NCBI RefSeq assembly: GCF_014699035.1 | Contig: NZ_JACXAA010000011.1 | Coordinates: forward strand, 124,001-188,000 | Direction of reading: 5' to 3' | Source of the DNA: Spirosoma validum | GTDB taxonomy: Bacteria; Bacteroidota; Bacteroidia; Cytophagales; Spirosomataceae | Length of the DNA stretch: 64,000 nucleotides | Part shown: piece after piece, positions 3,545-21,644 of the stretch | Numbering within the stretch: position 1 is the first letter of the stretch | Layout of the letters: every line of letters begins with the position of its first letter | Program-made: the position numbers and the translations under genes | The notes under the pieces: generated by a model | The model's database searches: none | The model's input: the letters and a program-made list of their open reading frames with translations, nothing else | Told to the model about the DNA's origin: nothing

Positions 3545-6544
3545 ATGCAAAAACTTTTATTTGCAGGCGTTATCTGGCTGCTTTCCTATGGAGGACTGCT
3601 GGCCCAATCAACTGCATCTCACGTGTCAGGCACGATCCGAACCAATACTGGCGAACCGTTGCCAGGTGCAAACGTAGTGCTGAAAAACCAAACGAAAGGA
3701 GCGACGACCGATGCAGAAGGTCATTTTACGCTGGAAGCGCGCGCCGGGGATGAGGTGGTTATTTCAGCGATTGGTTACCAGACGACTCCCGTAAAAATTG
3801 GCTCGACCTCTACGCTGACCGTTACCTTACAGGAATCAGCTTCCCAACTCAGCGAAGTGGTGGTGGTTGGTTACGGTACCCAGGACCGTAAAAACCTGGT
3901 TGGCTCGGTTAGTCAGGTCAATGCCGAGGAAATCAAAAATCGTCCGGTAGCCAGTTTCGATCAGCAATTGCAGGGGCGGGCCGCTGGTGTTCAGGTGGCG
4001 GCTAATACGGGCGTACCGGGTGACGGTATCTTCTTTCGCATTCGGGGAACAACCTCGATCAATGCCAGCAATGACCCACTTTACGTAGTGGATGGTGTAT
4101 TTGTTAATAACCTGTCATTACAAAAAATAACGACCCAGGGACAGTCCAACAATCCACTGGCGGATATCAACCCCGCCGATATTGAATCCATCTCGATTCT
4201 GAAAGATGCGGAAGCAACGGCTATTTATGGAGCCCGGGCGGCCAACGGCGTTGTGCTGATTACCACCAAACGAGGTAGCTATAACAGCAAGACGAAAGTG
4301 ACGCTGAATGCCTCAGTCGGACAAGCCTGGGCGCCCAAACTCTGGGATTTGGTAACCGGCCCTGAGCATGCGACGATCATCAATGAAGCCTGGGTTAATG
4401 ATGGTAAGCCAGCGGCAACGCGTCCATTCCGACCGGTTTCGGAGGGTGGCCGTGGACTACCCGAAGAACAACCCACCTATGATCGGTTAAGCGATATTTT
4501 CCGGACAGGCGCTTTGCAGAATTATGACGTAGCGGTGTCGGGCGGAACGAAGCAAACGCGCTTTTACCTGGGCGGTGGTTATACAAGTCAGCAGGCTACG
4601 CTACGGACGAACGACTTCTCACGAGCCAGCTTCAAACTAAACCTGGACCAGGACATTACGGATAAGATCCGGATCGGTACGAGTAACATCTTTTCGCAAT
4701 CGAATCGGACTAACGCCCGTGTCGGTGACGGACCACAGGGCGGTATTCTCCAGGCGGCACTTCATACACCAACCTATCTGCCCAAGTTCAATACGGATGG
4801 TACGTATGCCAAGTGGGCCGGGTTCGATAACCTCGACGTGCTGATCAACAACACGGATATGCACTCGACCAGTACGCGCTACATCGGCAATATCTACGGT
4901 GAGTATGATATTCTGAGCAACTTAAAATTCCGTAGTAGCTGGAGTATTGATTACAACGACTACAATGAATACGAATACTGGAACACGCTTACCAACCGAG
5001 GCAGTGCCAGTAAAGGGTTAGCCACATCAAGCGTTAGTAAAAATACGATCTGGATCAACGAACAGACGCTGTCCTATCGGCAAACGTTTGGTTCACTGCA
5101 TACTGTTGGTGTGCTGGCAGGTAACACGTTCCAGGGTAACGTATCGACCCAGACGCTGGCACAGGGAACGAATTTCCCGTCGGACGCTTTTAAACAGATC
5201 GCGTCGGCGTCAGTCACTACGTCATCGTCGAACCGGAACCAGTACAACCTGGCCTCTTTCTTTGGACGGATCGATTACAACTTCGCCCGGAAATACTTTT
5301 TTGAAGCCAGTCTGCGGGCCGATGCTTCATCAAAATTCGCTCAAGGTCATCGCTGGGGCTATTTTCCTTCCGCTGGTGTAGCCTGGCAATTGAAACAGGA
5401 GAATTTTCTGCGGGATGCTACGTTCCTGAGTGATCTAAAAATCCGGGCCAGCGTCGGTTGGACCGGCAATCAGAATGGCATCGACAACTACGCATCCCGC
5501 GGGCTCTGGGGCGGGGGCAATAACTACCAGGATAATCCCGGTACGGTACCCGTTCAACTGGCGAATCCGGAATTAAAATGGGAAACCACCCGACAAACGA
5601 ACGTGGGGTTGAACGTCGGCTTGTTCAACAACCGGATTGGGCTGGAAATCAATGCCTACTCGAAGTATACCTACGATTTATTGCTTCAGGTACCGCTGGC
5701 GCAGAGTTCGGGTTTTGCCAGCATCTACCGCAACGATGGCGAAATCAGCAACCGCGGTCTTGAGTTTGCGATCAACTCTCTGAACTTCAACAAAAGCGGT
5801 TTCCAGTGGAATACCAGTTTTAACATCGCCAGCAACGTAAACCGAATCGAGCGACTCTCGATTCCAGTGGATGCCAGCTACGCGACCGAGCGTATGGCGG
5901 AAGGCCAACCGTTTCACGCCTTTTTCGTCTACAAGCAACTGTATGTCGATCCGAAAACGGGCGATGCCGTATATGAAGACGTAAACAAAGATGGTCAGAT
6001 TACCGTAGCGGATAAGCAATTCTACGGCAGCGCTTTACCGAAACTTTTCGGCGGTCTGAACAATACGTTCTCCTACAAAGGGTTCGATCTGTCGGTTTTC
6101 TTCAATTTCAGTTCCGGCAATAAAGTCTTCAACAACAACCGGTTTTTTCATGAATCGGGCGGTACTCGAGACGACCGGCGGGCCATTAACAAAAACCAGT
6201 TGAATCGCTGGCAGAAAGAAGGCGACATTACGGATGTTCCGCGTGTAATGACCATCGGTAACAATTACAACCTAAGTCCCACCAGTCGCTTTGTGGAAGA
6301 CGGTTCGTTTATCCGGCTTAATTCAGTGGTATTTGGCTACACGATCCCCAAAGCGATCCTAAGCAAAGTTGGTATTTCTTCGGCGCGTGTCTATTACAAT
6401 GGCTCCAATCTGTGGCTTGTCAGTAAGTATCAGGGACCTGATCCTGAAGTAAACGTTACAGGGAATCCGACCACTCAGGGCTACGACTTAGGTACGCCCC
6501 CTCAACCCCGGACTGCTCAGTTCGGTCTTAATCTGACTCTCTAA
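3545..6544 (+). CDS. SusC/RagA-type TonB-dependent outer-membrane receptor
   Basis: 999 residues, full length for SusC. A signal peptide covers residues 1-21 (GGLLAQS), a CarboxypepD_reg-like domain about 25-100 (SGTIRTNTGEPLPGANVVL), the SusC linker EVVVVGYGTQ at 104-113, a plug domain about 115-240 (FFRIRGTTSINASNDPLYVVDG; SISILKDAEATAIYGARAANG), and then a 22-strand-type beta-barrel ending in FGLNLTL with the terminal-strand pattern of outer-membrane proteins. It should import a substrate across the outer membrane using TonB energy, with the SusD lipoprotein encoded 52 bp downstream acting as lid. A small hairpin lies between the two genes. The neighbouring cyanophycinase-like enzyme suggests a peptide-like substrate rather than a glycan, but this is inference. 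No sigma/anti-sigma or HTCS regulator is adjacent. Confidence 0.96.
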   Translation: MQKLLFAGVIWLLSYGGLLAQSTASHVSGTIRTNTGEPLPGANVVLKNQTKGATTDAEGHFTLEARAGDEVVISAIGYQTTPVKIGSTSTLTVTLQESASQLSEVVVVGYGTQDRKNLVGSVSQVNAEEIKNRPVASFDQQLQGRAAGVQVAANTGVPGDGIFFRIRGTTSINASNDPLYVVDGVFVNNLSLQKITTQGQSNNPLADINPADIESISILKDAEATAIYGARAANGVVLITTKRGSYNSKTKVTLNASVGQAWAPKLWDLVTGPEHATIINEAWVNDGKPAATRPFRPVSEGGRGLPEEQPTYDRLSDIFRTGALQNYDVAVSGGTKQTRFYLGGGYTSQQATLRTNDFSRASFKLNLDQDITDKIRIGTSNIFSQSNRTNARVGDGPQGGILQAALHTPTYLPKFNTDGTYAKWAGFDNLDVLINNTDMHSTSTRYIGNIYGEYDILSNLKFRSSWSIDYNDYNEYEYWNTLTNRGSASKGLATSSVSKNTIWINEQTLSYRQTFGSLHTVGVLAGNTFQGNVSTQTLAQGTNFPSDAFKQIASASVTTSSSNRNQYNLASFFGRIDYNFARKYFFEASLRADASSKFAQGHRWGYFPSAGVAWQLKQENFLRDATFLSDLKIRASVGWTGNQNGIDNYASRGLWGGGNNYQDNPGTVPVQLANPELKWETTRQTNVGLNVGLFNNRIGLEINAYSKYTYDLLLQVPLAQSSGFASIYRNDGEISNRGLEFAINSLNFNKSGFQWNTSFNIASNVNRIERLSIPVDASYATERMAEGQPFHAFFVYKQLYVDPKTGDAVYEDVNKDGQITVADKQFYGSALPKLFGGLNNTFSYKGFDLSVFFNFSSGNKVFNNNRFFHESGGTRDDRRAINKNQLNRWQKEGDITDVPRVMTIGNNYNLSPTSRFVEDGSFIRLNSVVFGYTIPKAILSKVGISSARVYYNGSNLWLVSKYQGPDPEVNVTGNPTTQGYDLGTPPQPRTAQFGLNLTL

Positions 6545-6596: not shown

Positions 6597-7940
6597 ATGA
6601 GAAATACATTTAAACTGATTCCTTTTCTTCTTTTGTTTACGGGTTGCCAGAAGTTTTTAGATGTGCAGCCCGAATTGCAGGTCGATGAGTCGCAGGCAAT
6701 CACCAACGCCAGTACCGCCGAAGCTGCCGTCAATGGTCTTTACAACCGGTTAGGCAGCGATGGGTATTACGGCTCCAACTATCCGTCTCTGTCCTATCTA
6801 TCCGGTGGAGATATTCAATGGACGGGTTCCCAATCGGCTCCGCAGGAGATTACGTCCCGGAAATTAACGGCGGATAACGGCTACGTAGGTTCAGCCTGGC
6901 AGGCTATTTACCGGACGATCCTGCAGGCAAATTATCTGCTCGAAACAGTTCCGGCACTAACCGATCCACAGTTAACTGCGGATCGAAAGGCTCAGATTCA
7001 GGGCGAAGCCTACGCGCTACGGGCGTTGTCGTATTTCGATCTGGTTCGTGGCTGGGGCGGGGTTCAATTGATCCTAAAACCGACGTACACACCCTCCGAC
7101 AATACCGGTATAACCCGTAGTAGCGTCGATGATACGTATGCACAGGTGCTAAAGGATCTGACCGCGGCCGAACCGTTGCTGGGGACGACCACCAATCGCA
7201 ACAAAGTAACCCGGAAAACCGTCTGGGCGTTACGTTCGCGTTATCACCTATATCGGCAGGAATGGGAGCAGGCCGAAACCTATGCCAGTAAACTCATCGA
7301 CGATGCCACCAATTACAAACTGGCGAAACCCTACAATGCTTTCTTCGCCAACAACGCTGCCGCTACGTCCGAATCGATTTTCGAGATTGCCTACACGAAT
7401 TCGTTTAAGAATGGTCATTACAACTGGTGGTTACCGCCGGCCCTGAGCGGTCGACGCGAATGGGCACCAAACGCAAATCTGGTTACGTTGCTGAACAATC
7501 CGAACGTAGGTGGCAACCGCAAGGAGTTGATTGCCCAAACCGCTCCTCCCGGCAATCTATGGTACGGCAAACTCTATTACCGAACACCGCTTGGCACCGA
7601 TCCGGCGTATGTGATACGTATCGCCGAACTGTATCTGATACGTGCCGAAGCACGCGCGCAGCTGGGCAAAACAACGACTGCTCTCGCTGATCTGAATGCG
7701 GTTCGTGATCGGGCGGGCGTACCACTCGCTCAGGCTTCTACCAAAGACGCTCTCCTGCTGGCCATCGAAGCCGAACGGCAGGTTGAATTTCCCTTCGAGA
7801 CCGACCGCTGGTTCAATCTGGTACGAACGGGCCGGGTGGCGGCTGTGCTGGGTATCACGGATGCCAACAAATACGTATTACCCATTCCGAACAGCGAAAT
7901 ATTAGCCGATAAAGCTCTTACCCAGAATAAAGGATATTAA
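6597..7940 (+). CDS. SusD/RagB-family outer-membrane substrate-binding lipoprotein
   Basis: 447 residues, slightly short for SusD but complete. The signal peptide ends in a lipobox, LLFTGC, with Cys17 as lipidation site and QKFLDVQPE following, the usual SusD start. The N-terminal SusD-like domain contains NASTAEAAVNGLYNRL. TPR-like helices follow (GEAYALRALSYFDLVRGWGG), then the RagB C-terminal region (VIRIAELYLIRAEARAQLGK; LNAVRDRAG; IEAERQVEFPFETDRWFNLVRTGR), ending in PNSEILADKALTQNKGY, the common SusD C-terminus. It sits on the cell surface and captures substrate for the SusC partner immediately upstream. No glycoside hydrolase is nearby; the next gene encodes a secreted S51 peptidase. 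Confidence 0.95.
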   Translation: MRNTFKLIPFLLLFTGCQKFLDVQPELQVDESQAITNASTAEAAVNGLYNRLGSDGYYGSNYPSLSYLSGGDIQWTGSQSAPQEITSRKLTADNGYVGSAWQAIYRTILQANYLLETVPALTDPQLTADRKAQIQGEAYALRALSYFDLVRGWGGVQLILKPTYTPSDNTGITRSSVDDTYAQVLKDLTAAEPLLGTTTNRNKVTRKTVWALRSRYHLYRQEWEQAETYASKLIDDATNYKLAKPYNAFFANNAAATSESIFEIAYTNSFKNGHYNWWLPPALSGRREWAPNANLVTLLNNPNVGGNRKELIAQTAPPGNLWYGKLYYRTPLGTDPAYVIRIAELYLIRAEARAQLGKTTTALADLNAVRDRAGVPLAQASTKDALLLAIEAERQVEFPFETDRWFNLVRTGRVAAVLGITDANKYVLPIPNSEILADKALTQNKGY

Positions 7941-7993: not shown

Positions 7994-8881
7994 ATGAAAA
8001 AACAAGTCTTTTCTACGTTCCTTTTTTTAGGACTATTCGCTGGCTACGTTCATGCCCAGACTCCCCAAACGGTAGGTCCAGAAAAAGGATCGCTGGTAAT
8101 TGTCGGCGGGGGTACCATGGGACCCGAGATCTGGAACCGATTCTTGGAACTGGCTGGTGGTCCAGCCGCTGCCAACATCGTGATTATTCCAACGGCGGGC
8201 GAAGATTCGTCGGCAATGAGCGCTCCCCGCGAAAAGGAAAAGCTACTTAGTCTGGGTGTTAAAAACATTACCGTTTTGCACACCCGCGATCCCAAAGTGG
8301 CGAATCAGGAATCGTTTGTCGCGCCGGTCCGTAACGCAACGGGTATCTGGTTTGTAGGCGGTCGTCACTGGCGCCTGGCCGATTCATACTTGAATACGCT
8401 GGCTCACAAAGAATTCAAGGCGGTGCTGGAACGGGGCGGGGTTATTGGTGGTACGTCGGCGGGCGCAACAATTCTGGGCTCGTTTATGGTTCGGGGCGAT
8501 ACCAAAGGCAACTCGATCATGATCGGCGATCATACGCAGGGACTGGATTTTATTCACAATGTGACAATTGATCAGCACTTTTTGCGCCGGAACCGCCAGT
8601 TCGACCTGATTGACGTAATTAAAACTCGCCCCGAATTACTTGGTATTGCCATCGACGAAAGCACAGCGATTGTGGTGCAACAGAATTCATTCGATGTGAT
8701 TGGCAACTCATACGTCGGTATTTATGAAGCGAATCAGATTGCCAACAGTGCCAAATATCCATCGGGCCAAAACAGCACGGGTGGGCCGTTCTATTTTCTT
8801 GGTAAAGGGCAGAAGTTTGATCTGAAAGCACGTAAAGTGATCAACCAGCCGCCATCACGCCCGAACGAACCAGCTAAGTAA
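7994..8881 (+). CDS. Secreted cyanophycinase-like peptidase (S51 family)
   Basis: The ATG at 7994 is chosen because it starts a clean signal peptide (about residues 1-21, ending YVHAQ); an earlier in-frame ATG at 7958 would put hydrophilic residues in front. The product is 295 residues. The fold is the class-I-glutamine-amidotransferase-like S51 type: KGSLVIVGGG, VIIPTAGED, IWFVGGRHWRL and the nucleophile elbow GGTSAGA with Ser155. Cyanophycinases cut multi-L-arginyl-poly-aspartate to beta-Asp-Arg; peptidase E relatives cut N-terminal Asp. The HFLRRNRQFDL segment fits cyanophycinase more than dipeptidase E. It follows susD by 53 bp, so it probably belongs to the susCD operon, acting in the periplasm or outside. 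A strong hairpin closes the gene. The true substrate is not provable here. Confidence 0.82.
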   Translation: MKKQVFSTFLFLGLFAGYVHAQTPQTVGPEKGSLVIVGGGTMGPEIWNRFLELAGGPAAANIVIIPTAGEDSSAMSAPREKEKLLSLGVKNITVLHTRDPKVANQESFVAPVRNATGIWFVGGRHWRLADSYLNTLAHKEFKAVLERGGVIGGTSAGATILGSFMVRGDTKGNSIMIGDHTQGLDFIHNVTIDQHFLRRNRQFDLIDVIKTRPELLGIAIDESTAIVVQQNSFDVIGNSYVGIYEANQIANSAKYPSGQNSTGGPFYFLGKGQKFDLKARKVINQPPSRPNEPAK

Positions 8882-8984: not shown

Positions 8985-10334
8985 ATGATGTCCGAAGCTA
9001 AATCTGCTACTTTCTCAACCTGGACGAGTGCCGAACGGATCGTTTTTCGCTTCGCTTTTCTTTATTTCATCCTTCAGGCGGTTCCACTCGATTGGCGGTT
9101 CTATTATGATCTGTTTACGATTGATTGGGGAAGATTTTACTACCGTGACCTGTTTAACCTATCGCGTTATGCTCCGCATTTTTTCGGTCCTACTGATACA
9201 TTTGCCAACTGGGCCATTGTCGCACTCATTGCGTTAGTGGGCACCATAGTCTGGTCATTCCGCGATCCACAACGTCAGCATTACACCGAACTCTATTATT
9301 GGTTACGGGTCATTCTTCGCTATCGACTGGCTATTGGTGTTTTGGCGTACGGGTTCCTGAAACTGTTTCCGATGCAGGCACCCCTGCCTTCCCTCAGCAA
9401 CCTCAACACCGCCTACGGCGATTTTACGGCCTGGAAATTATTTTCGATGAGTCTGGGAATTGTGCCTTCCTACGAGTCGTTTCTGGGGCTGATCGAAATT
9501 CTGGGCGGCTTACTCCTGCTGAACCGGAAAACGACGTCGATCGCTATGTTGATCATCATTCCGTTTCTGGGAAATATCTTCATGTCGAACCTGGCTTATG
9601 AAGGCGGTGAGCATATCTACAGTTTTCTGCTCATTACGTATGCCCTGTTTTTGTTTGCTTTCGACGCCGTTCGGCTGTTTCGACTGGTTTCGCTGGAGCA
9701 ACCGGCGGCACCTAACCGGTTTAAACCCGTACTAACAGAAGCCTGGCAACGTTACGGTCGTCTCGCGTTAAAAAGTGCGTTTATCGTTTTTGCCGTCGTC
9801 GTGTACGGCTACAAAACCTACGCGGCTTATCGGACGGGTCCGTACCAGTTTCCCCAAACGCCCGGTTTATCGGGCGCTACCGGTGTTTATGACGTGGCCA
9901 AATTTAAACTAGCTGGTCAGGCCCTCCCCTATTCGAAAACGGATTCGGTGCGCTGGCAGGACGTTGTCTTTGAAACCTGGAATACGATCAGCATCAAATC
10001 AAATCGGCCCGTTCTGCTCGACCGGGTGGAAACCGAACAGATTCACTCGGCAGACACGGACCGGACATACGAAGAAGCCGGGGCGGCAGGACGGCACTAT
10101 TATACCTATCAGGTTGATTCGGTTCAGCACGTACTGACGCTGAAAAACCGCAATCCAAATTATCCGAACGAAACCCTGACGCTACGCTATAACCAGGCCG
10201 GTAACAATGACTTCATCCTGTCGGGACTGAACGAAAACCGGGATTCGGTCTACGCCGTACTTCACAAACTGGATAAAAAATACTTGCTCCACGAGGCAGC
10301 TAAAGCAGGTCGGCGGGGTATACTCAAACTCTAA
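8985..10334 (+). CDS. DoxX-like polytopic membrane protein with C-terminal soluble domain (first of a tandem pair)
   Basis: 449 residues (ATG at 8985 or 8988). Hydrophobic segments include ERIVFRFAFLYFILQAVPLDW, ANWAIVALIALVGTIVWSF and several around 105-225. The core YWLRVILRYRLAIGVLAYGFLKLFPMQ, then GLIEILGGLLLLNRKTT and GGEHIYSFLL, is like DoxX/DoxD-type proteins, named after a thiosulfate:quinone oxidoreductase subunit. After the last membrane segment (about residue 270) about 170 residues form a soluble domain with SVRWQDVVFETWNT and DFILSGLNENRDSVYAVL. The next gene is a clear paralogue. It is the first gene of an operon continuing with cytochrome c and SoxC, so a role as membrane electron-transfer partner is plausible but inferred. 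It could instead be an uncharacterised stress or permease-like DoxX protein. Confidence 0.75.
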   Translation: MMSEAKSATFSTWTSAERIVFRFAFLYFILQAVPLDWRFYYDLFTIDWGRFYYRDLFNLSRYAPHFFGPTDTFANWAIVALIALVGTIVWSFRDPQRQHYTELYYWLRVILRYRLAIGVLAYGFLKLFPMQAPLPSLSNLNTAYGDFTAWKLFSMSLGIVPSYESFLGLIEILGGLLLLNRKTTSIAMLIIIPFLGNIFMSNLAYEGGEHIYSFLLITYALFLFAFDAVRLFRLVSLEQPAAPNRFKPVLTEAWQRYGRLALKSAFIVFAVVVYGYKTYAAYRTGPYQFPQTPGLSGATGVYDVAKFKLAGQALPYSKTDSVRWQDVVFETWNTISIKSNRPVLLDRVETEQIHSADTDRTYEEAGAAGRHYYTYQVDSVQHVLTLKNRNPNYPNETLTLRYNQAGNNDFILSGLNENRDSVYAVLHKLDKKYLLHEAAKAGRRGILKL

Positions 10335-10347
10335 CCATTACGTACCA

Positions 10348-12030
10348 ATGGCACTTCCGAATATCAATCCTGAACGGTCAGACTTAGGGCTGGTCTCGTC
10401 TGAAGAACTGGTCGCTATTTACGAACCTACCCAACAAGCTACTACAGCTGGTTCTTCGGCTGGATCACCCAAACGCTTTTACGACTGGACAAGCGGGCAG
10501 AAAATACTGTTCCGCATAGCTTTTATTTTCTTTATCGTCATGTCGATCCCAACCGGCGTGAATTGGTACAAAAACGTCACCTCGCTCGACTGGCTGCACC
10601 TGCATTATCGTGACCTGTACGACGTTGCGCGCTTTCAGCCGAACATGCTGGGTCGCGTAAACTGGTGGCCTGCCTGGATGGGCTACGGGGAATGGGTATT
10701 TATCCTGCTTGTCACTACGGTCCTCGGGCTGGTCTGGACGGCCATCGTTCGCCTTCGAAAAGCGGAACCACGTAATTACAATTTGCTCTATTACTGGCTT
10801 CGGGTCGTCGTTCGCTACCGCGCGGGCATCGGAATCATCGGCTTCGGTTTTACCAAACTAATGCCAACCCAACTACCCTATCCGTCATTGGGCTTGCTCA
10901 ACACCAACTTCGGCGATCTAACGGCGCAGAAAATTTACTGGCTATCCATCGGTATTGCACCCTGGTATGAGGTCTTCACCGGCGTTGTGGAAGTGCTGGC
11001 GGGTGCTCTGCTGTTCTTCCGGGCCACTACGTTCTGGGGTTCTGTGCTGCTCTTCGGTGCGCTGGCGGACATTGTTTACGTTAATCTCGCTTATGATGGA
11101 GGTGTTCATGGTTACAGTTCTTATTTCGTGCTGCTGGCCGGTTTCCTGCTGATATACTACGTTCGGGACCTGTATAATCTCCTGATTCGGGAGCAGTTCA
11201 CAATTCCCGTGCATTTCTATCCCCGCTTAAACCGGTGGCAGCAGGGAGTCCGCATTAGTTTGAAAACAGCCACCATTGGCATTTTCCTGGTTTTGTTAGG
11301 CTGGATTCAATACCTCAATTTCCGGTACGATCCGTACAAGCAGCCCGCTCAGAAAGGCATTCGGGAGCTTCGGGGTAACTACGCTATAACCGAGTTTCGA
11401 CTTAATAATCAGTCAATTCCTTATTCGCCAGTGGATTCGGTACGCTGGCAGGAAGCTACGTTTGAAAACTGGTCGACCCTAACGTATAAAGTGAATCGTG
11501 CCGTGCCGCTGGATTTGTCAAACGGCGGTGGCTCACCCATGCGGGACCTCAACCGAACCTTCGAGTTGACGGGCGTAGCGGGTGGTCAGCGGGTTTTTTA
11601 TTACGATGCTGACCCGATCAGTCACGTTTTGTATCTGCAGGATAAATACCGCCCGTTCGACGGACGCCGGGGTGAAGGCGATTCACCTTCCGGATCAGAT
11701 AACAAAAAGGGCAAATCGAATCGTAAAGCCAGATCTGAGAAATCAACCGATAACTGGATTCCGGCGACTGCGCTGGCTAGTATCGGACCAGAAGATTCGA
11801 AAATTGACGCCATTGCCCGCACCACCCGACGGACGAAAGGCATCAACTCCGAAGCCCGTATGGAAAATGGCAAACGCAAGCGGATGATTCTAAATTACCA
11901 GACCACCGACGGATCGCACGTTATTCTGACGGGTATTAACGAAAACAAGGATTCAATTTACGTCGTATTGGATCGGGTCGATCGGCCCTACGCCCTGTCG
12001 AAAAGTACACTGAATGCCGGTACGTATTAG
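10348..12030 (+). CDS. DoxX-like polytopic membrane protein with C-terminal soluble domain (second paralogue)
   Basis: 560 residues, 13 bp after its paralogue. It shares the same blocks: YYWLRVVVRYRAGIGIIGFGFTKLMPTQ, the NTNFGDLTAQKIYW segment, GVVEVLAGALLFFRATTFWG, VNLAYDGGVHGYSS, then the soluble region with SVRWQEATFENWST and VILTGINENKDSIYVVL. It differs by an extra N-terminal tail of about 50 residues and by a charged, low-complexity insertion (about residues 432-510, rich in K, R, S, G and D) inside the soluble domain. That insertion is absent from the first copy. The paired arrangement suggests a heterodimer made after tandem duplication. The downstream neighbours at 12047 (cytochrome c) and 12639 (SoxC-like) are packed with gaps of 16 and 1 bp. 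Function inferred from context only. Confidence 0.75.
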   Translation: MALPNINPERSDLGLVSSEELVAIYEPTQQATTAGSSAGSPKRFYDWTSGQKILFRIAFIFFIVMSIPTGVNWYKNVTSLDWLHLHYRDLYDVARFQPNMLGRVNWWPAWMGYGEWVFILLVTTVLGLVWTAIVRLRKAEPRNYNLLYYWLRVVVRYRAGIGIIGFGFTKLMPTQLPYPSLGLLNTNFGDLTAQKIYWLSIGIAPWYEVFTGVVEVLAGALLFFRATTFWGSVLLFGALADIVYVNLAYDGGVHGYSSYFVLLAGFLLIYYVRDLYNLLIREQFTIPVHFYPRLNRWQQGVRISLKTATIGIFLVLLGWIQYLNFRYDPYKQPAQKGIRELRGNYAITEFRLNNQSIPYSPVDSVRWQEATFENWSTLTYKVNRAVPLDLSNGGGSPMRDLNRTFELTGVAGGQRVFYYDADPISHVLYLQDKYRPFDGRRGEGDSPSGSDNKKGKSNRKARSEKSTDNWIPATALASIGPEDSKIDAIARTTRRTKGINSEARMENGKRKRMILNYQTTDGSHVILTGINENKDSIYVVLDRVDRPYALSKSTLNAGTY

Positions 12031-12046
12031 TCTTTGATTTTACAGC

Positions 12047-12637
12047 ATGAACTTATACAGTCTCTGGCTTCCGGGTGCCTTCTTGTTGGTGATGTTGACT
12101 AGCCGTTTTCAGACAATAGGTGAAGATAGACGGACTTCGCCTATAGCCAAAGTTGATACGTTGCCGACTCATTTTGGATTCGGGAGACCGGCTACAGCAG
12201 CCGAAATCGCCCGGCTCGATATTGACGTACGACCGGATGGAAAAGGCTTACCCGCTGGTGAGGGACAGGTTCTCACTGGCAAGCAGATTTTTGCGGCCAA
12301 ATGTGCGGCCTGTCACGGTACCGGGGGCGTAGATGGCCCGAACGGTTCACTGGTGACTACGACTAATCCGGGTAGAAAACGGCCCGAAAAAACCATTGGT
12401 AATTACTGGCCGTATGCCACCACCGTGTTCGATTATATTCGCCGGGCGATGCCGTTTAGCCAGCCGGGTTCACTCACCAATGACGAAGTCTATCACCTGA
12501 CGGCGTACTTGTTACAGGCGAATGGCATCATCGACGAAAAAACCGTCATCAATGCGCAGACGCTTCCCCGTGTGGTGATGCCTGCGCAGAAACTGTTCGT
12601 TCCGGACGATCGCAAAGGCGGCTCCGAAATCAAGTAA
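12047..12637 (+). CDS. c-type cytochrome, SoxD/SorB-like partner of the sulfite dehydrogenase
   Basis: 196 residues. The hydrophobic N-terminus (about 1-22) is a signal peptide or anchor, then one haem site, CAACH, at residues 86-90, with the probable axial Met135 in RRAMPF. The segment WPYATTVFDYIRRAMPF followed by LTNDEVYHLTAYLLQANGI and a conserved LPRVVMP is characteristic of the cytochrome that accompanies SoxC-type sulfite dehydrogenases. The classic SoxD is a longer diheme protein; this one has a single haem domain. It should take electrons from the molybdenum enzyme encoded 1 bp downstream and pass them to the respiratory chain in the periplasm. The downstream acceptor is unknown; the two DoxX-like membrane proteins upstream are candidates. 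Confidence 0.9.
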   Translation: MNLYSLWLPGAFLLVMLTSRFQTIGEDRRTSPIAKVDTLPTHFGFGRPATAAEIARLDIDVRPDGKGLPAGEGQVLTGKQIFAAKCAACHGTGGVDGPNGSLVTTTNPGRKRPEKTIGNYWPYATTVFDYIRRAMPFSQPGSLTNDEVYHLTAYLLQANGIIDEKTVINAQTLPRVVMPAQKLFVPDDRKGGSEIK

Positions 12638-12638
12638 A

Positions 12639-13913
12639 ATGACGAAAAAACGCATTCAACTGGAGCAGATTACAGGTCGCTTGTCCCGCCGGGCGATGCT
12701 TGGGGGCGCGGCCACAGCAGTTGTCGCGCTTGTTCAGACGGCATCGGGCAAAACGATTCAGCAAGGCGTATCGATCAGCGAACTACTCCCCGATGATCCA
12801 ACGAAACAAATCGGTACGTTGGCCGGTGAAGTTGGAACCCGCTCTGCGTTCGAAAAAGTGGTCAAAAAACCGTCCGATATTTCGTCACGGTCGCCGTTGC
12901 AGGATTTTTACGGGATCATTACGCCATCCGATCTGCATTTTGAACGCCACCACGCGGGCGTACCGGCCATTGATCCCGCCAAACACGAATTATTGATCCA
13001 CGGGCTGGTCGATAAGCCTCTGGTGTTTACCGTAGAGGACCTAAAACGTTTTCCATCGGTTTCGCGAATTGCTTTTCTGGAGTGCTCGGGTAATTTTCGT
13101 AGTGGCAAAGAAACCATGAGTCCCCAGGACATTTGTGGATTAACCAGCCAAAGCGAGTGGACGGGGGTCAAGCTCTCGACGCTTTTCCGGGAAGCAGGCG
13201 TTAAATCAAACGCTACGTGGTTTCTGGCCGAAGGGTCCGATGCGGCTGTTATGACCCGTAGCATTCCGGTAAAAAAAGGCTGGGACGATGCGATTGTAGC
13301 CTACGCCCAGAATGGTGAAGCGCTACGTCCTGAGCAAGGCTATCCGGTACGCTTGTTTCTGCCCGGCTGGGAGGGCAATACGTCTGTGAAATGGCTACGT
13401 CGAATCGAGCTGTCGGATCAGCCGTTTATGACCCGCGAAGAAACCTCAAAATATACCGAACCAATCAAAGGCGCCGAACCGGTGCGCCGGAGCGACGGCC
13501 CGGGCAAGTACCGACAATTCAGTTTCGATATCGATGCCCGGTCGATCATTACGTTCCCGGCTTATCCGAAAACGGTTGAAAAAGGCTGGATCGAAATTCG
13601 GGGGATTGCCTGGAGCGGTCGCGGTAAAGTAGCGCGGGTAGAGGTCAGCACGGATGCGGGGAAATCCTGGCAATTGGCTACGCTTCAGGAACCGATTCTG
13701 GATAAAGCCCACACGGCCTTCCGCTACGTATGGAATTGGAACGGAGTTGAAACGGAGATTCTGAGCCGCGTGACCGACGAGACGGGTTATCTTCAGCCTA
13801 CCCTGAATCAACTATTTGCGGCCCGTGGCGACACCATCAGCTATCATTTCAATCCGATCACGGCCTGGCGAATTAAGTCAGATGGTTCGGTGTTATTTAA
13901 ACCCGAACCCTGA
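12639..13913 (+). CDS. SoxC-like sulfite dehydrogenase, molybdopterin subunit
   Basis: 424 residues. A twin-arginine signal (RLSRRAMLGG, residues 14-23) predicts Tat export of the folded cofactor-loaded enzyme. The oxidoreductase molybdopterin domain (about 85-270) contains FERHHAGVP, the Mo-ligating cysteine in FLECSGNF (Cys149), and GYPVRLFLPGWEGNTSVKWLRRIEL. A C-terminal Mo-co dimerisation domain (about 285-395) contains KGWIEIRGIAWSGRGKVARVEVS. These are marks of SoxC rather than of the YedY/MsrP reductase. The expected reaction is oxidation of sulfite, or in full Sox systems of a SoxYZ-bound sulfane, with electrons to the adjacent cytochrome c. No soxXA, soxYZ or soxB is in the window, so free sulfite is the likelier substrate. 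Confidence 0.88.
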   Translation: MTKKRIQLEQITGRLSRRAMLGGAATAVVALVQTASGKTIQQGVSISELLPDDPTKQIGTLAGEVGTRSAFEKVVKKPSDISSRSPLQDFYGIITPSDLHFERHHAGVPAIDPAKHELLIHGLVDKPLVFTVEDLKRFPSVSRIAFLECSGNFRSGKETMSPQDICGLTSQSEWTGVKLSTLFREAGVKSNATWFLAEGSDAAVMTRSIPVKKGWDDAIVAYAQNGEALRPEQGYPVRLFLPGWEGNTSVKWLRRIELSDQPFMTREETSKYTEPIKGAEPVRRSDGPGKYRQFSFDIDARSIITFPAYPKTVEKGWIEIRGIAWSGRGKVARVEVSTDAGKSWQLATLQEPILDKAHTAFRYVWNWNGVETEILSRVTDETGYLQPTLNQLFAARGDTISYHFNPITAWRIKSDGSVLFKPEP

Positions 13914-13916
13914 GAC

Positions 13917-15386
13917 ATGGCGAAAACAGAATTTGATGCAGTAGTAGTTGGCTCAGGCCCGAACGGCTTGAGTGCCGCCATTACGCTTCAACAAGCCGGA
14001 TTATCCGTACTCGTACTGGAGGCTAAAGAAACCATTGGTGGAGGTTTACGGTCAGCGGAGTTGACGCTACCGGGTTTTACGCACGATGTTTGCTCGGCTA
14101 TCCATCCGATGGCTCTCGGTTCGCCTTTTTTTCAGACACTGCCTCTAGCCGAACATGGTCTGGAATACATTAACCCGCCGATCTTGTGCGCTCATCCATT
14201 CGATACGGGGAAGGCTGCTGCGTTAACATCCTCCCTAGCCGAAACGGCAGCGTCACTCGGGCTGGACAACCAGGCGTATCTGAACCTTTTTGAAGGGTTA
14301 GTGCAGCGCTGGCCGAACCTGGCACCTGACATATTGGGACCTCTGCGTTTTCCTAAACATCCGATCGATCTGGCTCGCTTTGGGTTGGATGCACTTTTGC
14401 CCATTACGCAACTGGTTAAACGCTTCCAGACTACCGAAGCCCGCGGCTTACTGGGAGGCATGGCTGCCCACGCTATTCAGCCATTAACCAATCTCACAAC
14501 GTCAGCTATTGCGCTGGTGCTCATGACGGCCGGTCATCGGTACGGCTGGCCAATCCCAAAGGGCGGCTCTCAGGCGATTGCGCAGGCGTTGACTTCCTAT
14601 TTCCGCTCGCTGGAGGGAATTGTCGAGACGAACCGACCGGTTCAATTACTTAAAGACATTCCTTCGTCGCGCGTTGTGCTGTTCGATCTTACACCGAAAC
14701 AATTGCTACGTATCGCTGGAGACCGCTTTTCAACGATTTATCGCACGCAGCTGGAACGGTATCGATATGGGATGGGCGTCTTTAAAATCGATTGGGCACT
14801 GGATGGCCCCATTCCGTTTACCGCCCCTGAATGTCGACAGGCGGGTACCGTGCATCTTGGTGGTACGTTCGAAGAGATGGTTCAGACGGAGCAAATGTCC
14901 TCATCCGGAAAACACCCCGACCGGCCCTTCGTTCTACTGGCGCAGCAGAGCTTATTCGACACTACCCGTGCCCCCGAAGGAAAACATACGGCCTGGGCGT
15001 ACTGCCACGTACCGAATGGGTCAACGCTGGACCGTACCGATGCGATTGAGCAGCAGGTTGAACGATTTGCACCGGGCTTCCGCGACCGTATTCTGGCCCG
15101 ACACACGTTGAATACGGTTCAATTGGAACACTATAATCCCAACTACGTTGGCGGTGATATCAATGGCGGTATCCTCGACATTACCCAACTTTACACTCGC
15201 CCGGTCATAACCCTGTCGCCGTACGAAACCTCAGCACCCGGAATTTTTATTTGCTCTTCCTCTACACCACCAGGCGGTGGGGTTCACGGCATGTGTGGTT
15301 ACCATGCGGCTCGCGTGGCTCTTCGCCAGGGATTCGGTATAGCAATTCCGGATCGGCCTGCTGCACACCTTAGCCAAACTAAATGA
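13917..15386 (+). CDS. Phytoene-desaturase/CrtI-like FAD-dependent oxidoreductase
   Basis: 489 residues. The N-terminal Rossmann fold has GSGPNG at residues 12-17 and the ribose-binding Glu at the end of strand 2 (VLVLEAKETIGGGLRS). It matches the CrtI/PYROXD2-like branch of the amine-oxidase superfamily: GFTHDVCSAIHPM near the N-terminus, and the C-terminal FAD motif PGIFICSSSTPPGGGVHGMCGYHAA. The start lies 3 bp after the SoxC stop, so it is the last gene of the five-gene operon. No carotenoid genes are nearby, which argues against a carotenoid role; these enzymes are often annotated only as NAD(P)/FAD-dependent oxidoreductases. Its reason for sitting with a sulfite dehydrogenase is unknown. 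The convergent SDR gene ends 5 bp downstream. Confidence 0.88.
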   Translation: MAKTEFDAVVVGSGPNGLSAAITLQQAGLSVLVLEAKETIGGGLRSAELTLPGFTHDVCSAIHPMALGSPFFQTLPLAEHGLEYINPPILCAHPFDTGKAAALTSSLAETAASLGLDNQAYLNLFEGLVQRWPNLAPDILGPLRFPKHPIDLARFGLDALLPITQLVKRFQTTEARGLLGGMAAHAIQPLTNLTTSAIALVLMTAGHRYGWPIPKGGSQAIAQALTSYFRSLEGIVETNRPVQLLKDIPSSRVVLFDLTPKQLLRIAGDRFSTIYRTQLERYRYGMGVFKIDWALDGPIPFTAPECRQAGTVHLGGTFEEMVQTEQMSSSGKHPDRPFVLLAQQSLFDTTRAPEGKHTAWAYCHVPNGSTLDRTDAIEQQVERFAPGFRDRILARHTLNTVQLEHYNPNYVGGDINGGILDITQLYTRPVITLSPYETSAPGIFICSSSTPPGGGVHGMCGYHAARVALRQGFGIAIPDRPAAHLSQTK

Positions 15387-15391: not shown

Positions 15392-16195
15392 CTACCTGGT
15401 CAGCAAGCCAGCATCCAGAACAAACTGCGATCCGGTGATGTAGCGAGCCTCGTCTGAAACCAAATAAAGCACCATTGCTGATACGTCCTCCGGCTCTACC
15501 CAGGGAACTGGAAGCAGATTGCCTGCCGACCGCTCGGCGATTTCCTGCGTGGTTGCACCTTCCAGTTCGGCCAGCCCGTCGTTCATCGGCGTGTTGACCC
15601 CGGTGGGGTGAATCGAGTTCACCCGAATGTTATGCGGAGCCAGCTCGATTGCCCAGGACTTGGTCAAGCCCACCAAACCCCATTTGGAGGCCGCATAATG
15701 GCTCAGTCGGTTCATTCCCCGAAGCCCCGCAATTGAAGAATTGTTAATAATAACGCCCCCATGTTGCCGGATCATCACTGGGATAATACGTCGGGCTATC
15801 AACCAGGGACCTTTCAGGTTGATGTCGATCATCGCATCCCACGCTTCTTCGGCAAGTTCATGTGCCAGTCCATAGGCACAAATACCCGCGTTGTTGAATA
15901 GAATATCGATACGGCCAAAGTTGCTGATTGCTCGTTCGACAGCGTAGCTGATATCCTGGTCATTTCGTACGTCTCCGGTTATGGTTAGACACCAGGCGTC
16001 GAGGGATTCAATCTCCTGCTGTAACGACGTAAGCTCAGATTCAGAACCGAGTGTATACCCCGGATAGCTCAGTGGTTTCGCTACGTCAAAGGCAACAATG
16101 CTGGCCCCCTCTTTTGCCAGAGCAAGTGCCACCGCCCGGCCTTGCCCGTGGGCAGCGCCCGTAATGAATGCGACTTTTCCGACTAGTTTAGGCAT
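15392..16195 (-). CDS. SDR-family oxidoreductase resembling mycofactocin-coupled dehydrogenases
   Basis: 267 residues. The Rossmann motif TGAAHGQGRA is at about residues 12-21, the NNAG motif in LFNNAGICAYG, catalytic Ser in NNSSIAG, and Tyr/Lys in YAASKWG. TGAAHGQG, the insertion after the second strand (about residues 40-66) and VNSIHPTGVNTPM are hallmarks of the carveol-dehydrogenase-like SDRs that in actinobacteria retain their nicotinamide and work with mycofactocin. No mycofactocin synthesis gene is visible, so the real electron acceptor here is unknown. The start overlaps the upstream CMD-like gene by 8 bp, so the two are translationally linked. The substrate is probably an alcohol; this is inferred from the family. 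Confidence 0.85.
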   Translation of the reverse strand: MPKLVGKVAFITGAAHGQGRAVALALAKEGASIVAFDVAKPLSYPGYTLGSESELTSLQQEIESLDAWCLTITGDVRNDQDISYAVERAISNFGRIDILFNNAGICAYGLAHELAEEAWDAMIDINLKGPWLIARRIIPVMIRQHGGVIINNSSIAGLRGMNRLSHYAASKWGLVGLTKSWAIELAPHNIRVNSIHPTGVNTPMNDGLAELEGATTQEIAERSAGNLLPVPWVEPEDVSAMVLYLVSDEARYITGSQFVLDAGLLTR

Positions 16196-16739
16196 GAGTT
16201 GCTGATTGGGTTAACGGTTTGTAAGGAGTCAGGTAATCATCAATCGTTACGTCCAGTACGTTATTAAACAGATTGGTCGCAATCATCTGTCCGGCAAACG
16301 CAACCAGCAGCACAATCTCATCGTCCGAATACACCTGATGAATGGGCTCGTACAGAGCATCGGACACCTCTCCCCGATTGCTGACTATAGCCGCTCCAAA
16401 CGCGAGCAGCTCTTGCTCAGCCTTTGTCAGATGTAAGTCCTCCGGTCGTTCCCCGTGCTCGATTATAATTTTTCGAAAAAAGGTCGTGCAGAGTGGGCAA
16501 TCACTCGCCTGAGAAATGGCATGCGCAAACAGATACGCTGTCCGTTCACCAACTATTTTTTTTACCTCCTCATACAGCGGATACCATTGCATATACACGT
16601 TGAACGCTAAGGGCGAGTGACTCAGCGTTGCTTTCATGTTGGTAATGCGCGAACCAGGGTACGTATCGATATGATGAGCCCAGGCCGCTTTCAGGTCGGC
16701 AGAATCCTTGGCCTCAATAAGTGGAGCTATCCGTGGCAT
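16188..16739 (-). CDS. Carboxymuconolactone-decarboxylase/AhpD-like protein
   Basis: 183 residues. The CMD/AhpD-like all-helical core includes MQWYPLYEEVKKIVGERTAYLFAHAIS and a redox-type CxxC in SDCPLCTTFFRKII, followed by LTKAEQELLAFGAAI. AhpD-type proteins reduce peroxiredoxins or act as thiol oxidoreductases through that CxxC; true decarboxylases lack it, so a redox role is more likely. A second conserved block (DDEIVLLVAFAGQMIATNLFNNVLDV) is in the C-terminal half. The gene overlaps the following SDR start by 8 bp, and a DUF4395 gene lies 73 bp upstream on the same strand. Substrate unknown. Confidence 0.8.
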   Translation of the reverse strand: MPRIAPLIEAKDSADLKAAWAHHIDTYPGSRITNMKATLSHSPLAFNVYMQWYPLYEEVKKIVGERTAYLFAHAISQASDCPLCTTFFRKIIIEHGERPEDLHLTKAEQELLAFGAAIVSNRGEVSDALYEPIHQVYSDDEIVLLVAFAGQMIATNLFNNVLDVTIDDYLTPYKPLTQSATHA

Positions 16740-16812: not shown

Positions 16813-17253
16813 TTAAGCCGCTCTGGAAAACAGGCGCACATAGAGAGTGTAGACATAGCAGCCCGCGCAAATCCCCACCAGAGATTCGAGGGCCGCGAAA
16901 CCGGCTAGAATAGCAGCCGGAAACAGAGTCGATACGTGAGCCAGATGAAGGCCTAAAATCAGCAGACTGAAGCACAAACCTATGCGGGCGGCAAATCGTT
17001 TCGGTGCCTGATCGGTCGCTTTATAGGGCAATCGAACTGTTTTTACGAGCCAGTCTGCTCCGTTCCCAAACGGACTGTACTTCCCCAGATTGAAACTCCG
17101 TAAGCTAAAATCAACCAGTAGCAGTATAGGCAGCAGGAGCCAGCCTGTCAGCAGAAACAGCAGGGTCGTAAGCAAGACAAATCCGGCAATCAGGCGCACT
17201 TTTACTTCATTAATCTGTACCCCATCAACGGGACATATGAGATTCGAATCCAT
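16813..17253 (-). CDS. DUF4395-family integral membrane protein
   Basis: 146 residues with about four membrane segments: KVRLIAGFVLLTTLLFLLTGWLLLPILLLVDF, a loop with RSFNLGKYSPFG, FAARIGLCFSLLILGLHLA, and FPAAILAGFAALESLVGICAGCYVYTLYV. The N-terminal CPVD motif with conserved Cys, and GICAGCYVY near the end, are typical of DUF4395 proteins, some of which occur with thioredoxin or thiosulfate-handling genes. It is first in a leftward group with the CMD-like and SDR genes. No experimental function is known to me for the family. The two conserved cysteine sites suggest a redox or sulfur link, which would fit the SoxC-like operon nearby; that link is inference. Confidence 0.8.
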   Translation of the reverse strand: MDSNLICPVDGVQINEVKVRLIAGFVLLTTLLFLLTGWLLLPILLLVDFSLRSFNLGKYSPFGNGADWLVKTVRLPYKATDQAPKRFAARIGLCFSLLILGLHLAHVSTLFPAAILAGFAALESLVGICAGCYVYTLYVRLFSRAA

Positions 17254-17993: not shown

Positions 17994-18012
17994 CATCGAT
18001 AACAAATAGGTG

Positions 18013-18630
18013 ATGGGAATCGTAGAGCGGAAAGAGCGGGAGCGGGAAGAAATGCGGAAGTTAATTCTTGACGCTGCCCGAAAGTTGTTTTTAGAGAATG
18101 GATTCGACAAGGTTAGCATCCGCAATATTGCCGATGAAATAGAATACAGCCCGGCCACAATCTATCTGTATTACAAGGACAAAAACGAGCTCTTTTTTGC
18201 TCTACACCAAACGGCGTTCACGAAGATGATTGAGGAGTTCGCTCCCATCGAACAAATTGAGCAGCCTATGGATAAACTCATTGAGATGGGACGGCTTTAC
18301 CTACGTTTCGCTTTTGAGAACCCTGAGCTATACGACCTGATGTTTATTATGACTGCCCCAATTGATGCGCTTGAGTGCCGTGAAGACATTTGGGATGATG
18401 GCGACCGCGCTTTCAGCATACTCCAACAGATTGTACAGGCATGCATTGATACAGGCACGATCAAACACCCTGACGCCGAGCAGGCCGCCCTAATGATATG
18501 GAGTTCAGTTCATGGCTTAGCTGCTTTGCATCTGCGTAGACGACTCAGCATGTTTGGCGAAGAACATGTTAAAACACTTGTGGATGAGACATTTAACTTA
18601 TTTCTAAATACGATAAAAAAGGGCTTGTAA
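18013..18630 (+). CDS. TetR/AcrR-family repressor of the downstream RND efflux operon
   Basis: 205 residues from the ATG at 18013; a GTG one codon earlier could also serve. The N-terminal helix-turn-helix (about residues 14-60) reads MRKLILDAARKLFLENGFDKVSIRNIADEIEYSPATIYLYYKDKNELFFAL, in full agreement with the TetR pattern. The C-terminal domain (about 70-200) is a helical ligand pocket with a TetR_C-type GRLYLRFAFENPELYDLMF region. An identical-type 20-bp operator lies on both sides of the gene: at its own promoter and 14 bp before the outer-membrane factor gene. The simplest reading is that it represses itself and the efflux operon until a toxic ligand binds. The ligand is unknown. Confidence 0.93.
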   Translation: MGIVERKEREREEMRKLILDAARKLFLENGFDKVSIRNIADEIEYSPATIYLYYKDKNELFFALHQTAFTKMIEEFAPIEQIEQPMDKLIEMGRLYLRFAFENPELYDLMFIMTAPIDALECREDIWDDGDRAFSILQQIVQACIDTGTIKHPDAEQAALMIWSSVHGLAALHLRRRLSMFGEEHVKTLVDETFNLFLNTIKKGL

Positions 18631-18644
18631 TTTTTTTATCCGTA

Positions 18645-18664
18645 TACTAAACAGTGTTCATTAA
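18645..18664 (+). promoter_or_regulatory. TetR operator before the RND efflux operon
   Basis: TACTAAACAGTGTTCATTAA matches the site upstream of tetR at 19 of 20 bases; the core AACAgTGTT is a perfect dyad. It ends 13 bp before the ATG of the outer-membrane factor, so bound TetR would obstruct transcription initiation or elongation. No clear TAnnTTTG box was found for this gene, so the operon may also be read from the tetR promoter. Confidence 0.75.
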
Positions 18665-18677
18665 CTAATACACGGTT

Positions 18678-20060
18678 ATGATACCTATAGCCAGATATTT
18701 TCTTTTACTACTAGTGGGATTGCCCTTATCCGCATGGGCACAACCATCGCCATCAGGTCCATCACTTATTCTGGAGAATTACATTCGCGAAGGGTTAGCC
18801 AGTAATCTTGCCCTACGACAGGAATCACTGGAAATTAGTCGGGTAAGTGAATCGGTCAATCAGGCGAAGTCGCTGTTTTATCCACGTATTGCTTTCAACC
18901 CGACTTATTCGCTGGCAGCAGGCGGGCGTCGGCTGGAATTTCCGGTGGGCGATTTACTCAATCCGGCGTATAGAACCCTTAATCAGATCATCGGTGCGGA
19001 ACGGTTTCCAACCAATATCCCTAACGTGAATGAGCTACTGGCTCCAAACAACTTTCACGACACAAAATTCACGGTTCAATACGCTTTATTCAACACAGAT
19101 ATTCAGTACAATTACCTTATTCAGAAACAATTACTCTCGGCCCAGGAAGCGCGTAGGCGTGTTGTCCAGAACGAACTTCGGTATACCATTTCAACGGCCT
19201 ATTACCAATATCTGCAAACGCTCGACGCGATTCGGATCTTCGAGAATTCACGTAACGTACTGAATCAGTTGACCCGCTTAAACGAAAAACTAGTCGCTAA
19301 CAATACAGCGACGAAAGAGGTCGTAACGTCTGCCCGATACGAAGTCAGCAAAGTAGATCAGCAGCTTGCCGTTGCAGAAAAAAATCGGGAAACGGCCCGC
19401 GCTTATTTCAATTTTCTCCTCAATCGCGAATTAACCGCGCCTGTCGAAGTCGATTCACTGCTTACAAAAATCCTGCCGGAATCGAAAGAAAGCCTCGCCG
19501 ATCTGCAACAGACCGCGTTACGTGGTCGGCAGGAGTTGGCTCAGTTGAATGGCTCGCTGGACGCTGCCCGAACGGCCGTGAAGCTGAACGAAGCCAATGC
19601 CAAAATCCCTAACGTTTATGTCGGCGCCAACACAGGCTTTCAGGGGTTCGGTTATACTTTTCAAAACCAGGCATACGTAGTAGGGCAGTTTGGTTTGCAG
19701 TGGGATTTGTTCCGGGGCTACGAAAAGCGCTCAAAGATCCAGCAGGCTAAAATTCAGACAGATGTGCTGCAAACAAGGCTTACCGAAGTGCAGCGGCAGA
19801 TTCAGCTACAGGTCTTGCAAGCGTATTATGATCTCGACGCAGCGACTGAAAGCTTGGCTGCGACGCAAAGTGGGGTCTTAAATGCAGACCAAACGTTCCG
19901 CGTCATCGATAGTAAATATCGTAATGGTCAATCCTTGCTGATCGAGTTTTTACGCTACCAGAACGACCGGTTAACAGCCCAAATCCAGCACTCGCTCGCC
20001 CGTATGGATATACTCGTAAAACGAGCTGCGCTGGATCGCGCCGTGGCAGTCAGTCAATGA
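18678..20060 (+). CDS. TolC-family outer-membrane efflux protein
   Basis: 460 residues, normal for TolC/OprM-type factors. The signal peptide ends at about residue 21 (LSAWAQ). Two OEP repeats follow: the first with YIREGLASNLALRQESLEISRVSESVNQAKSLFYPRI and the second with ALRGRQELAQLNGSLDAARTAVKLNEANAKIPNVYVGANTGF. Long alpha-helical segments rich in Q, A, L and R form the periplasmic tunnel (EVQRQIQLQVLQAYYDLDAATESL), and the typical SLLIEFLRYQNDRLTAQI lies near the end. It would form the outer-membrane channel of the tripartite pump encoded by the adaptor and RND genes downstream. It is the first gene after the TetR operator. Confidence 0.93.
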   Translation: MIPIARYFLLLLVGLPLSAWAQPSPSGPSLILENYIREGLASNLALRQESLEISRVSESVNQAKSLFYPRIAFNPTYSLAAGGRRLEFPVGDLLNPAYRTLNQIIGAERFPTNIPNVNELLAPNNFHDTKFTVQYALFNTDIQYNYLIQKQLLSAQEARRRVVQNELRYTISTAYYQYLQTLDAIRIFENSRNVLNQLTRLNEKLVANNTATKEVVTSARYEVSKVDQQLAVAEKNRETARAYFNFLLNRELTAPVEVDSLLTKILPESKESLADLQQTALRGRQELAQLNGSLDAARTAVKLNEANAKIPNVYVGANTGFQGFGYTFQNQAYVVGQFGLQWDLFRGYEKRSKIQQAKIQTDVLQTRLTEVQRQIQLQVLQAYYDLDAATESLAATQSGVLNADQTFRVIDSKYRNGQSLLIEFLRYQNDRLTAQIQHSLARMDILVKRAALDRAVAVSQ

Positions 20061-20070
20061 AGTATGTCCT

Positions 20071-20523: not shown

Positions 20524-20525
20524 CC

Positions 20526-21581: not shown

Positions 21582-21644
21582 CCCTTTAAACACGGAGAAC
21601 GCAGAAGGCTCAACCTCTTTGTCATCTCTGTGAATAGAAAGCCT

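Follow-up and report, generated by a model that had tools for sequence, protein, structure and literature searches.

What does a SoxC-type sulfite dehydrogenase have to do with the two DoxX-like membrane proteins encoded beside it, and to what larger gene run do they belong? The question arises from a stretch of 64,000 nt of Spirosoma validum DNA (contig NZ_JACXAA010000011.1, positions 124,001-188,000; host genome 8.2 Mb), here called the window, in which a sequence-only reading had described a five-gene operon for DoxX-like proteins A and B, a cytochrome c, SoxC and a CrtI-like flavoenzyme. Five plus-strand open reading frames (ORFs) are indeed present at 8985-15386, with the intergenic gaps of 13, 16, 1 and 3 bp that had been given. 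The same-strand unit is longer, however, as three further genes precede these five, and an importer had thereby been missed. They encode a SusC-type TonB-dependent outer-membrane transporter of 999 aa (3545-6544, + strand), a SusD-type lipoprotein of 447 aa (6597-7940, +) and an S51 cyanophycinase-like hydrolase with a signal-peptide-like N-terminus (7994-8881, +). The first two can be identified as a SusC/SusD pair, with the Pfam Plug domain, the regulatory domain CarbopepD_reg_2 and the TonB barrel in SusC, and SusD_RagB and SusD-like_3 in SusD, all above cut-off; the hydrolase matches PF03575 at 63.6 bits (cut-off 23.9) and TIGR02069 at 140 bits (cut-off 126.6). Its start is taken as the ATG at 7994, the ORF as listed beginning at a TTG at 7958. 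A promoter and terminator scan gave counts at or below shuffle expectation (14 against 14.6, and 12 against 17.2).

The importer-DoxX core and its partners

Relatives of the locus were compared in three samples: 150 genomes drawn evenly from the window's family, an even sample of 395 genomes from the phylum, and a named set consisting of the best 80 of 146 relatives found in named genomes with an alignment of DoxX-like A. Eight of these 80 loci were dropped, and the remaining 72, complete on both flanks, had their neighbours counted within 10-kb flanks. The alignment was built from proteins of the window's family, and the named set partly shares contigs with the 150 genomes, such that the samples are not independent; gene calls in the relatives' loci are longest ORFs, which are error-prone in GC-rich DNA. 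DoxX-like B follows A on the same strand in all 80 named loci. SusC and SusD were each found near the pair in 71 of the 72 complete-flank loci, with SusD upstream of the pair, and wherever a locus had more than one SusD copy the pair-adjacent SusD was the closer relative (15 of 15). The same 72 loci contain DoxX-like B in every case, the cytochrome in 57, SoxC in 52, the CrtI-type gene in 44, the S51 hydrolase in 21 and a sulfhydrylase in 4. They cover 27 labels at genus level, unclassified bins included, and SoxC is present in at least one locus for 20 of these labels. The importer-DoxX core is the constant part of the cluster, and SoxC is a frequent, not universal, partner.

The presence of the importer points towards a substrate that is organic, and away from inorganic sulfite or thiosulfate. 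We give an even chance of being correct to the explanation that the locus serves uptake of a sulfur-bearing organic nutrient, coupled to periplasmic oxidation of the sulfite released from it. SusC and SusD, judged by their families, would carry the sulfur-bearing compound over the outer membrane, and the S51 hydrolase, the DoxX-lipocalin pair and the CrtI-type FAD enzyme may bind, move or process it. Sulfite would be set free somewhere during breakdown of the compound, some relatives encoding an SsuD-like flavin monooxygenase near SoxC, and would arrive in the periplasm, in many relatives perhaps via a cluster-encoded YeiH-like exporter. Family membership and gene order suggest that the SoxC molybdoenzyme would there oxidise sulfite to sulfate, with the mono-haem cytochrome probably accepting the electrons from SoxC and delivering them to terminal oxidases. 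A large share of soil sulfur is organic sulfur, and SusC/SusD systems have been studied mainly for glycans. As in other SusC/SusD nutrient-uptake loci, SusC and SusD head the gene run; in contrast to those loci, the eight genes here include no glycan-active enzyme, and the downstream genes are of redox and sulfur type. If a conserved importer-plus-sulfite-oxidase locus is what these genes form, Bacteroidota would have a definite part in organosulfur turnover, and a membrane-protein pair that recurs yet passes no Pfam cut-off would acquire a function open to testing.

The pairing of the DoxX-like genes with SoxC is far beyond chance. Among the 150 family genomes the pair is present in 50 and SoxC, counted as hits above 600 bits together with a split gene in G072, in 46; both occur in 44, the pair only in 6, SoxC only in 2 and neither in 98 (Fisher 8e-29, uncorrected for kinship). 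SoxC lies within 10 kb of the pair in 39 of the 44 joint genomes, and within 2 kb in 30 of these; it is 18-31 kb away in 3 others, unlinked in G143, and on contigs too short to judge in G138. Within genera, counts of pair and SoxC over the listed genomes mostly match (4 and 4 of 11, 9 and 9 of 13, 5 and 5 of 16), with one departing genus of nine listed genomes in which the pair is found in 2, SoxC in 4 and both in 2. Such patchy, mostly coinciding presence favours shared gain and loss over mere descent. The cytochrome-SoxC cassette lies downstream in many loci and is still within the cluster when its position shifts: four Chitinophaga loci (L166, L179, L181, L189) have it upstream of SusC, and in three loci from Pedobacter (L153, L158, L186) it is divergent. 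Co-occurrence of the pair with SoxC across Bacteroidota, as a single module would imply, was found, with linkage in 52 of the 72 named loci and joint presence in 44 of the 50 family genomes with the pair, although in only two of five such genomes in the small phylum sample. By chance, a SusC/SusD-DoxX locus might also have come to share genomic islands with a cytochrome-SoxC cassette to which it is unrelated, and in G143 (Spirosoma oryzicola) SoxC does belong to a different module, which is carried by a plasmid and lies apart from the pair. We consider this scarcely probable, given how many of the named loci and genus-level labels include SoxC, the occurrence of the cassette on either side of SusC, and the rarity of SoxC in the phylum sample, where TIGR04555 is above cut-off in only 3 of the 395 genomes.

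Some of the relatives have unusual arrangements or origins. Several (L057, L059, L069, L079, L083, L086, L088) have a second SusC-SusD set, with TPR and DUF1684 proteins, between the DoxX-like pair and the cytochrome-SoxC cassette, which produces long composite clusters. One SusC-SusD-DoxX-DoxX-cytochrome-SoxC-YeiH cluster (L160, JADCRZ010000009.1) comes from a metagenome bin that bears the actinobacterial name Williamsia and is most likely mislabelled or mixed. In searches of the open PMC literature, outside which most subscription papers fall, no listed title or abstract opening described the locus.

SoxC, its cytochrome and the sulfur context

The SoxC-family protein (12639-13913, +, 424 aa) passes NCBIfam TIGR04555 with 475.3 bits (cut-off 420) and fails the SorA family NF052245 with 142.6 bits (cut-off 600). 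Its closest solved structure is 2xts_A (E 5.6e-84), the SorA structure 2blf matching with E 4.4e-32. The Mo ligand Cys149 lies within the motif FLECSGNFR, and the N-terminus, with twin arginines at residues 17-18 and then a hydrophobic stretch, reads by eye as a Tat leader. The cytochrome (12047-12637, +, 196 aa, with a signal-like start) is SoxD-like, having exactly one CxxCH and, as its best match in the PDB, 2xts_B, the cytochrome chain of SoxCD (E 8.7e-35); it is encoded within 600 bp of SoxC in all 52 complete-flank loci having SoxC. The TIGR04555 score and the match to 2xts_B support the proposed SoxC-type enzyme and its cytochrome partner.

The sequence-only reading had further suggested a module without soxXA, YZ or B. 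This holds for SoxY, for which the whole window genome has no match (109.5 bits for the Paracoccus control record), and for SoxB, for which the best genome hit is a distant one of 80.9 bits against a cut-off of 550 (control 861.1); in the SoxZ search the genome gave no match and the positive control was also silent. A complete Sox pathway was rejected, since SoxY is without a match and SoxB is below cut-off, and a sulfite enzyme without a Sox carrier stands. As SoxY is unmatched in the genome, sulfite appears a likelier substrate of this SoxC than carrier-bound sulfane. One residue is a further sign in favour of sulfite. At Cys+5 the window enzyme has an arginine (Arg154) that all 44 named Bacteroidota SoxC compared share (de-duplicated proteins with a phmmer score >550, from L113-L192) and that occurs in none of 12 other SoxC, comprising 3 from true Sox clusters and 9 stand-alone enzymes, with 3 of the 12 gapped at the arginine column. 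This residue is Arg in the SorA 2blf and Gly in the SoxC 2xts, and the arginine matches Arg190 of chicken sulfite oxidase. A quick SoxC tree was left unused, as support for its Bacteroidota clade was 0.08 and its outgroup was non-monophyletic.

The window proteins can be compared with several known systems. They resemble the SoxCD sulfane dehydrogenase (2xts) in both subunits, and differ from SoxCD of the Sox pathway in that the genome has no SoxY match and no SoxB above cut-off, and in that the partner cytochrome is mono-haem, whereas both true clusters counted (L256 and L257) have a di-haem partner with two CxxCH motifs. With the SorAB sulfite dehydrogenase they share a related Mo domain and the arginine at Cys+5, but not a score near the SorA cut-off. 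The stand-alone SoxC-cytochrome pairs of Proteobacteria (Paracoccus, Methylobacterium, Paraburkholderia and others) likewise combine SoxC with a mono-haem cytochrome outside a sox cluster, and some adjoin possible sulfite-releasing oxygenases; in contrast to the window, they are without the arginine at Cys+5, and no SusC/SusD or DoxX-like pair is annotated in the stretches viewed. Among these proteobacterial pairs, some adjoin LLM monooxygenases, once together with an aliphatic sulfonate-binding protein, or TauD/TfdA dioxygenases, and one has a PhnD/SsuA-type binding protein nearby; further pairs have no such sulfur neighbour within the stretch viewed.

Sulfur-related genes recur around the Bacteroidota loci. 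A YeiH-like exporter is encoded in the same gene runs and was found in 35 of the 72 named loci. It has been argued, in a study of SoxT proteins, that YeiH/SuyZ moves sulfite out of the cytoplasm to periplasmic sulfite dehydrogenases, which oxidise it there (PMC11582611). Of 61 mapped stretches, 6 have an SsuD-like flavin monooxygenase in the same runs, one of which is a Spirosoma oryzicola plasmid run on the same contig as L055, with the order SusC-SusD-amidohydrolase-LLM oxidoreductase-amino acid permease-cytochrome-soxC. O-acetylhomoserine sulfhydrylase and methionine aminotransferase, each above its subfamily cut-off, and a DASS anion symporter above cut-off are also found in relatives' runs. 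The window genome itself has, on another contig and beside a permease-like gene, an SsuD-like enzyme that shares 83% identity with one of the SsuD-like group.

A number of observations weigh against organosulfur uptake coupled to sulfite oxidation. The pair occurs without SoxC in 6 of 50 family genomes (G004, G018, G044, G069, G097, G131), while G043 and G108 have SoxC but not the pair, and in G143 the two are unlinked. SoxC was absent within 10 kb in 20 of the 72 named loci, 7 of which (L114, L115, L124, L127, L130, L132, L145) match stretches with SoxC further along. In the phylum sample, where TIGR04555 is above cut-off in G000, G401 and G447 and the pair is present in G000, G004, G240, G416 and G447, the two coincide in G000 and G447, and three of the five genomes with the pair are therefore without SoxC. 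The tested YeiH-like protein is above PF03601 but below TIGR00698 (93.7 against 232.6), and the window genome has no PF03601 match above cut-off (best 23.6 against 24.5). SsuD-like proteins fall below the SsuD equivalog cut-off, and none of the 72 named loci has one inside the 10-kb flanks, the conserved core containing no desulfonating enzyme. The nine stand-alone SoxC from outside Bacteroidota are also without Arg at Cys+5, so the arginine is a supporting sign, not proof, of a sulfite substrate. Finally, the CrtI-type family is very large, all 7998 scored candidates being under E 1e-60, and the presence of a CrtI-type gene is therefore weakly informative.

Alternatively, the SusC/SusD locus could serve a nutrient of peptide or amino-acid-like type with no sulfur basis of its own, sulfite oxidation being a detoxifying add-on for the sulfite that cysteine or methionine breakdown releases. 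The S51 hydrolase is consistent with such a nutrient, as are the M19 dipeptidase, amino acid permeases and methionine aminotransferase of some loci and the part of the loci without SoxC. We consider this account somewhat unlikely, in that SoxC and the pair are mostly gained or lost jointly within the family, and YeiH-like exporters and sulfonate-type neighbours recur.

The DoxX-like pair

DoxX-like A (8985-10334, +, 449 aa), which is 82-86% identical to named Spirosoma proteins, and DoxX-like B (10348-12030, +, 560 aa) are paralogous, with 39% identity over A residues 8-389. Neither matches any Pfam family above cut-off, including DoxX PF07681. Among 62 relatives MauE and DoxX gave only weak matches (best E 0.0069 and 0.15, DoxX at 0.15 at best and in 4 of the 62), and DoxD and DoxA were not listed at E up to 1. 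In hhalign, a profile of six DoxX proteins from the same genome was matched with 63.8% probability over 98 columns, where a YeiH-like control reached 0.34%. These profile comparisons suggest remote DoxX profile similarity of the pair, not DoxX family membership. A strict DoxDA homologue was rejected, there being no DoxX, DoxD or DoxA above cut-off; the likeness to the DoxX/DoxDA thiosulfate:quinone oxidoreductase would lie in a remotely DoxX-like helical core of A and B, and the difference, besides the family scores, in an additional lipocalin-like barrel.

This barrel is predicted in the structural model of A (pLDDT 88.7, pTM 0.84), where about seven membrane helices are followed by eight strands at residues 295-430. 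It resembles designed barrels and lipocalins (fold search Z up to 10.6), in agreement with a lipocalin-like fold, and, coming after the last helix, would be placed in the periplasm. The model of B (pLDDT 78.1) has the same order of elements plus a low-confidence insert. The fold search was filled by the barrel and no helical-domain match surfaced, which is not evidence of a new fold; Foldseek with the A model gave no match at E 0.001 or better, and a PDB sequence search with the DoxX-like profile returned nitrophorins alone, at E ~0.7 and over the barrel end. Neither A nor B of the window contains a cysteine. Across 17 aligned A proteins no His or Cys is invariant, His371 being present in at least 90%, and in an alignment of 30 B proteins His254 is present in all and His86 in at least 90%.

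The pair had been proposed to carry electrons from the SoxC cytochrome into the membrane or quinone pool. A quinone reductase of this kind, fed by the cytochrome or, in the manner of DoxDA, by thiosulfate, is consistent with the hhalign similarity to DoxX and with the tight linkage of the pair to SoxC. DoxDA itself is not known to contain haem or metal, and as such the absence of cofactor residues from the pair is not decisive against a quinone role. Nevertheless, there is no cysteine in A or B and no invariant His in A, even if His254 of B is in 30 of 30, the Pfam and relatives' searches gave neither protein a DoxX, DoxD or DoxA assignment, and the pair exists without SoxC and cytochrome yet with SusC/SusD in nearly every locus. 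An electron-transfer role is possible but unsupported, and we regard a quinone reductase as distinctly improbable. Within the preferred explanation, that of organosulfur uptake coupled to sulfite oxidation, a more specific proposal can be made for the core. SusC/SusD-DoxX-DoxX might be a dedicated Bacteroidota machine for uptake and processing of an amphipathic organosulfur compound, such as an N-acylated aminosulfonate or a sulfonolipid, with the periplasmic lipocalin-like barrels holding the ligand and SoxC clearing sulfite, and so a sulfur counterpart of polysaccharide utilisation loci. In this specific form we hold the proposal to be rather improbable.

Relatives of A were not found on viral contigs. 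Eighteen more distant DoxX-like genes occur singly, most without labelled cluster genes nearby, and some of their neighbours are common to several Spirosoma loci.

The flavoenzyme and neighbouring genes

The fifth gene of the original five (13917-15386, +) encodes a CrtI/amine-oxidase-type FAD protein of 489 aa, in which no signal sequence was seen. It matches FAD families and falls below the curated cut-offs of named carotenoid families, with 55.2 against 238.1 for phytoene desaturase CrtI, TIGR02734. Every family genome that has the pair (50) or SoxC (46) also has a CrtI-type gene, as do 27 genomes without the pair. At 20 loci away from the pair its contexts are mixed, with an S51 hydrolase and sulfhydrylase in some and a sulfatase and GH130 in others. 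In L227, L229, L230 and L233 the CrtI relative is flanked by a sulfatase on one side and, on the other, by a protein that has a sulfatase-modifying-factor-like domain, with a gene of the GH130 beta-1,2-mannosidase family nearby (annotated in L227 only), which makes another setting for this flavoenzyme family.

Three minus-strand genes follow the flavoenzyme gene and are possibly linked to the locus: an SDR dehydrogenase (15392-16195), a CMD/YciW-like protein with a weak CMD match below cut-off (16188-16739) and a DUF4395 membrane protein (16813-17253; PF14340, 100.3 bits). The link that had been suggested for this group is partly upheld, in that SDR relatives share a gene run with CrtI in L066, L104, L105 and L221, and CMD-like relatives in L104, L105, L106 and L221; these are few genomes, and neither SDR nor CMD was found in any of the 72 named loci. 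Five of the 72 have a DUF4395 relative in the 10-kb flanks of the pair. In G114 (L221) the gene order is CrtI-methionine aminotransferase-CMD-SDR-amino acid permease. The window SDR passes TIGR03971, a mycofactocin-coupled subfamily, with 310.5 bits against a cut-off of 300; mycofactocin is not known from Bacteroidota.

Further along the window, an ordinary efflux operon (18010-24716, +) encodes, after a TetR-type regulator, an outer membrane protein resembling TolC, two ORF products (150 and 351 aa) and an RND pump of AcrB type. Two large proteins are also encoded on the plus strand, a subtilase with GEVED and Ig-like domains (34989-39089) and a PKD protein that carries a type IX secretion signal of the CHU_C kind (45290-47674).

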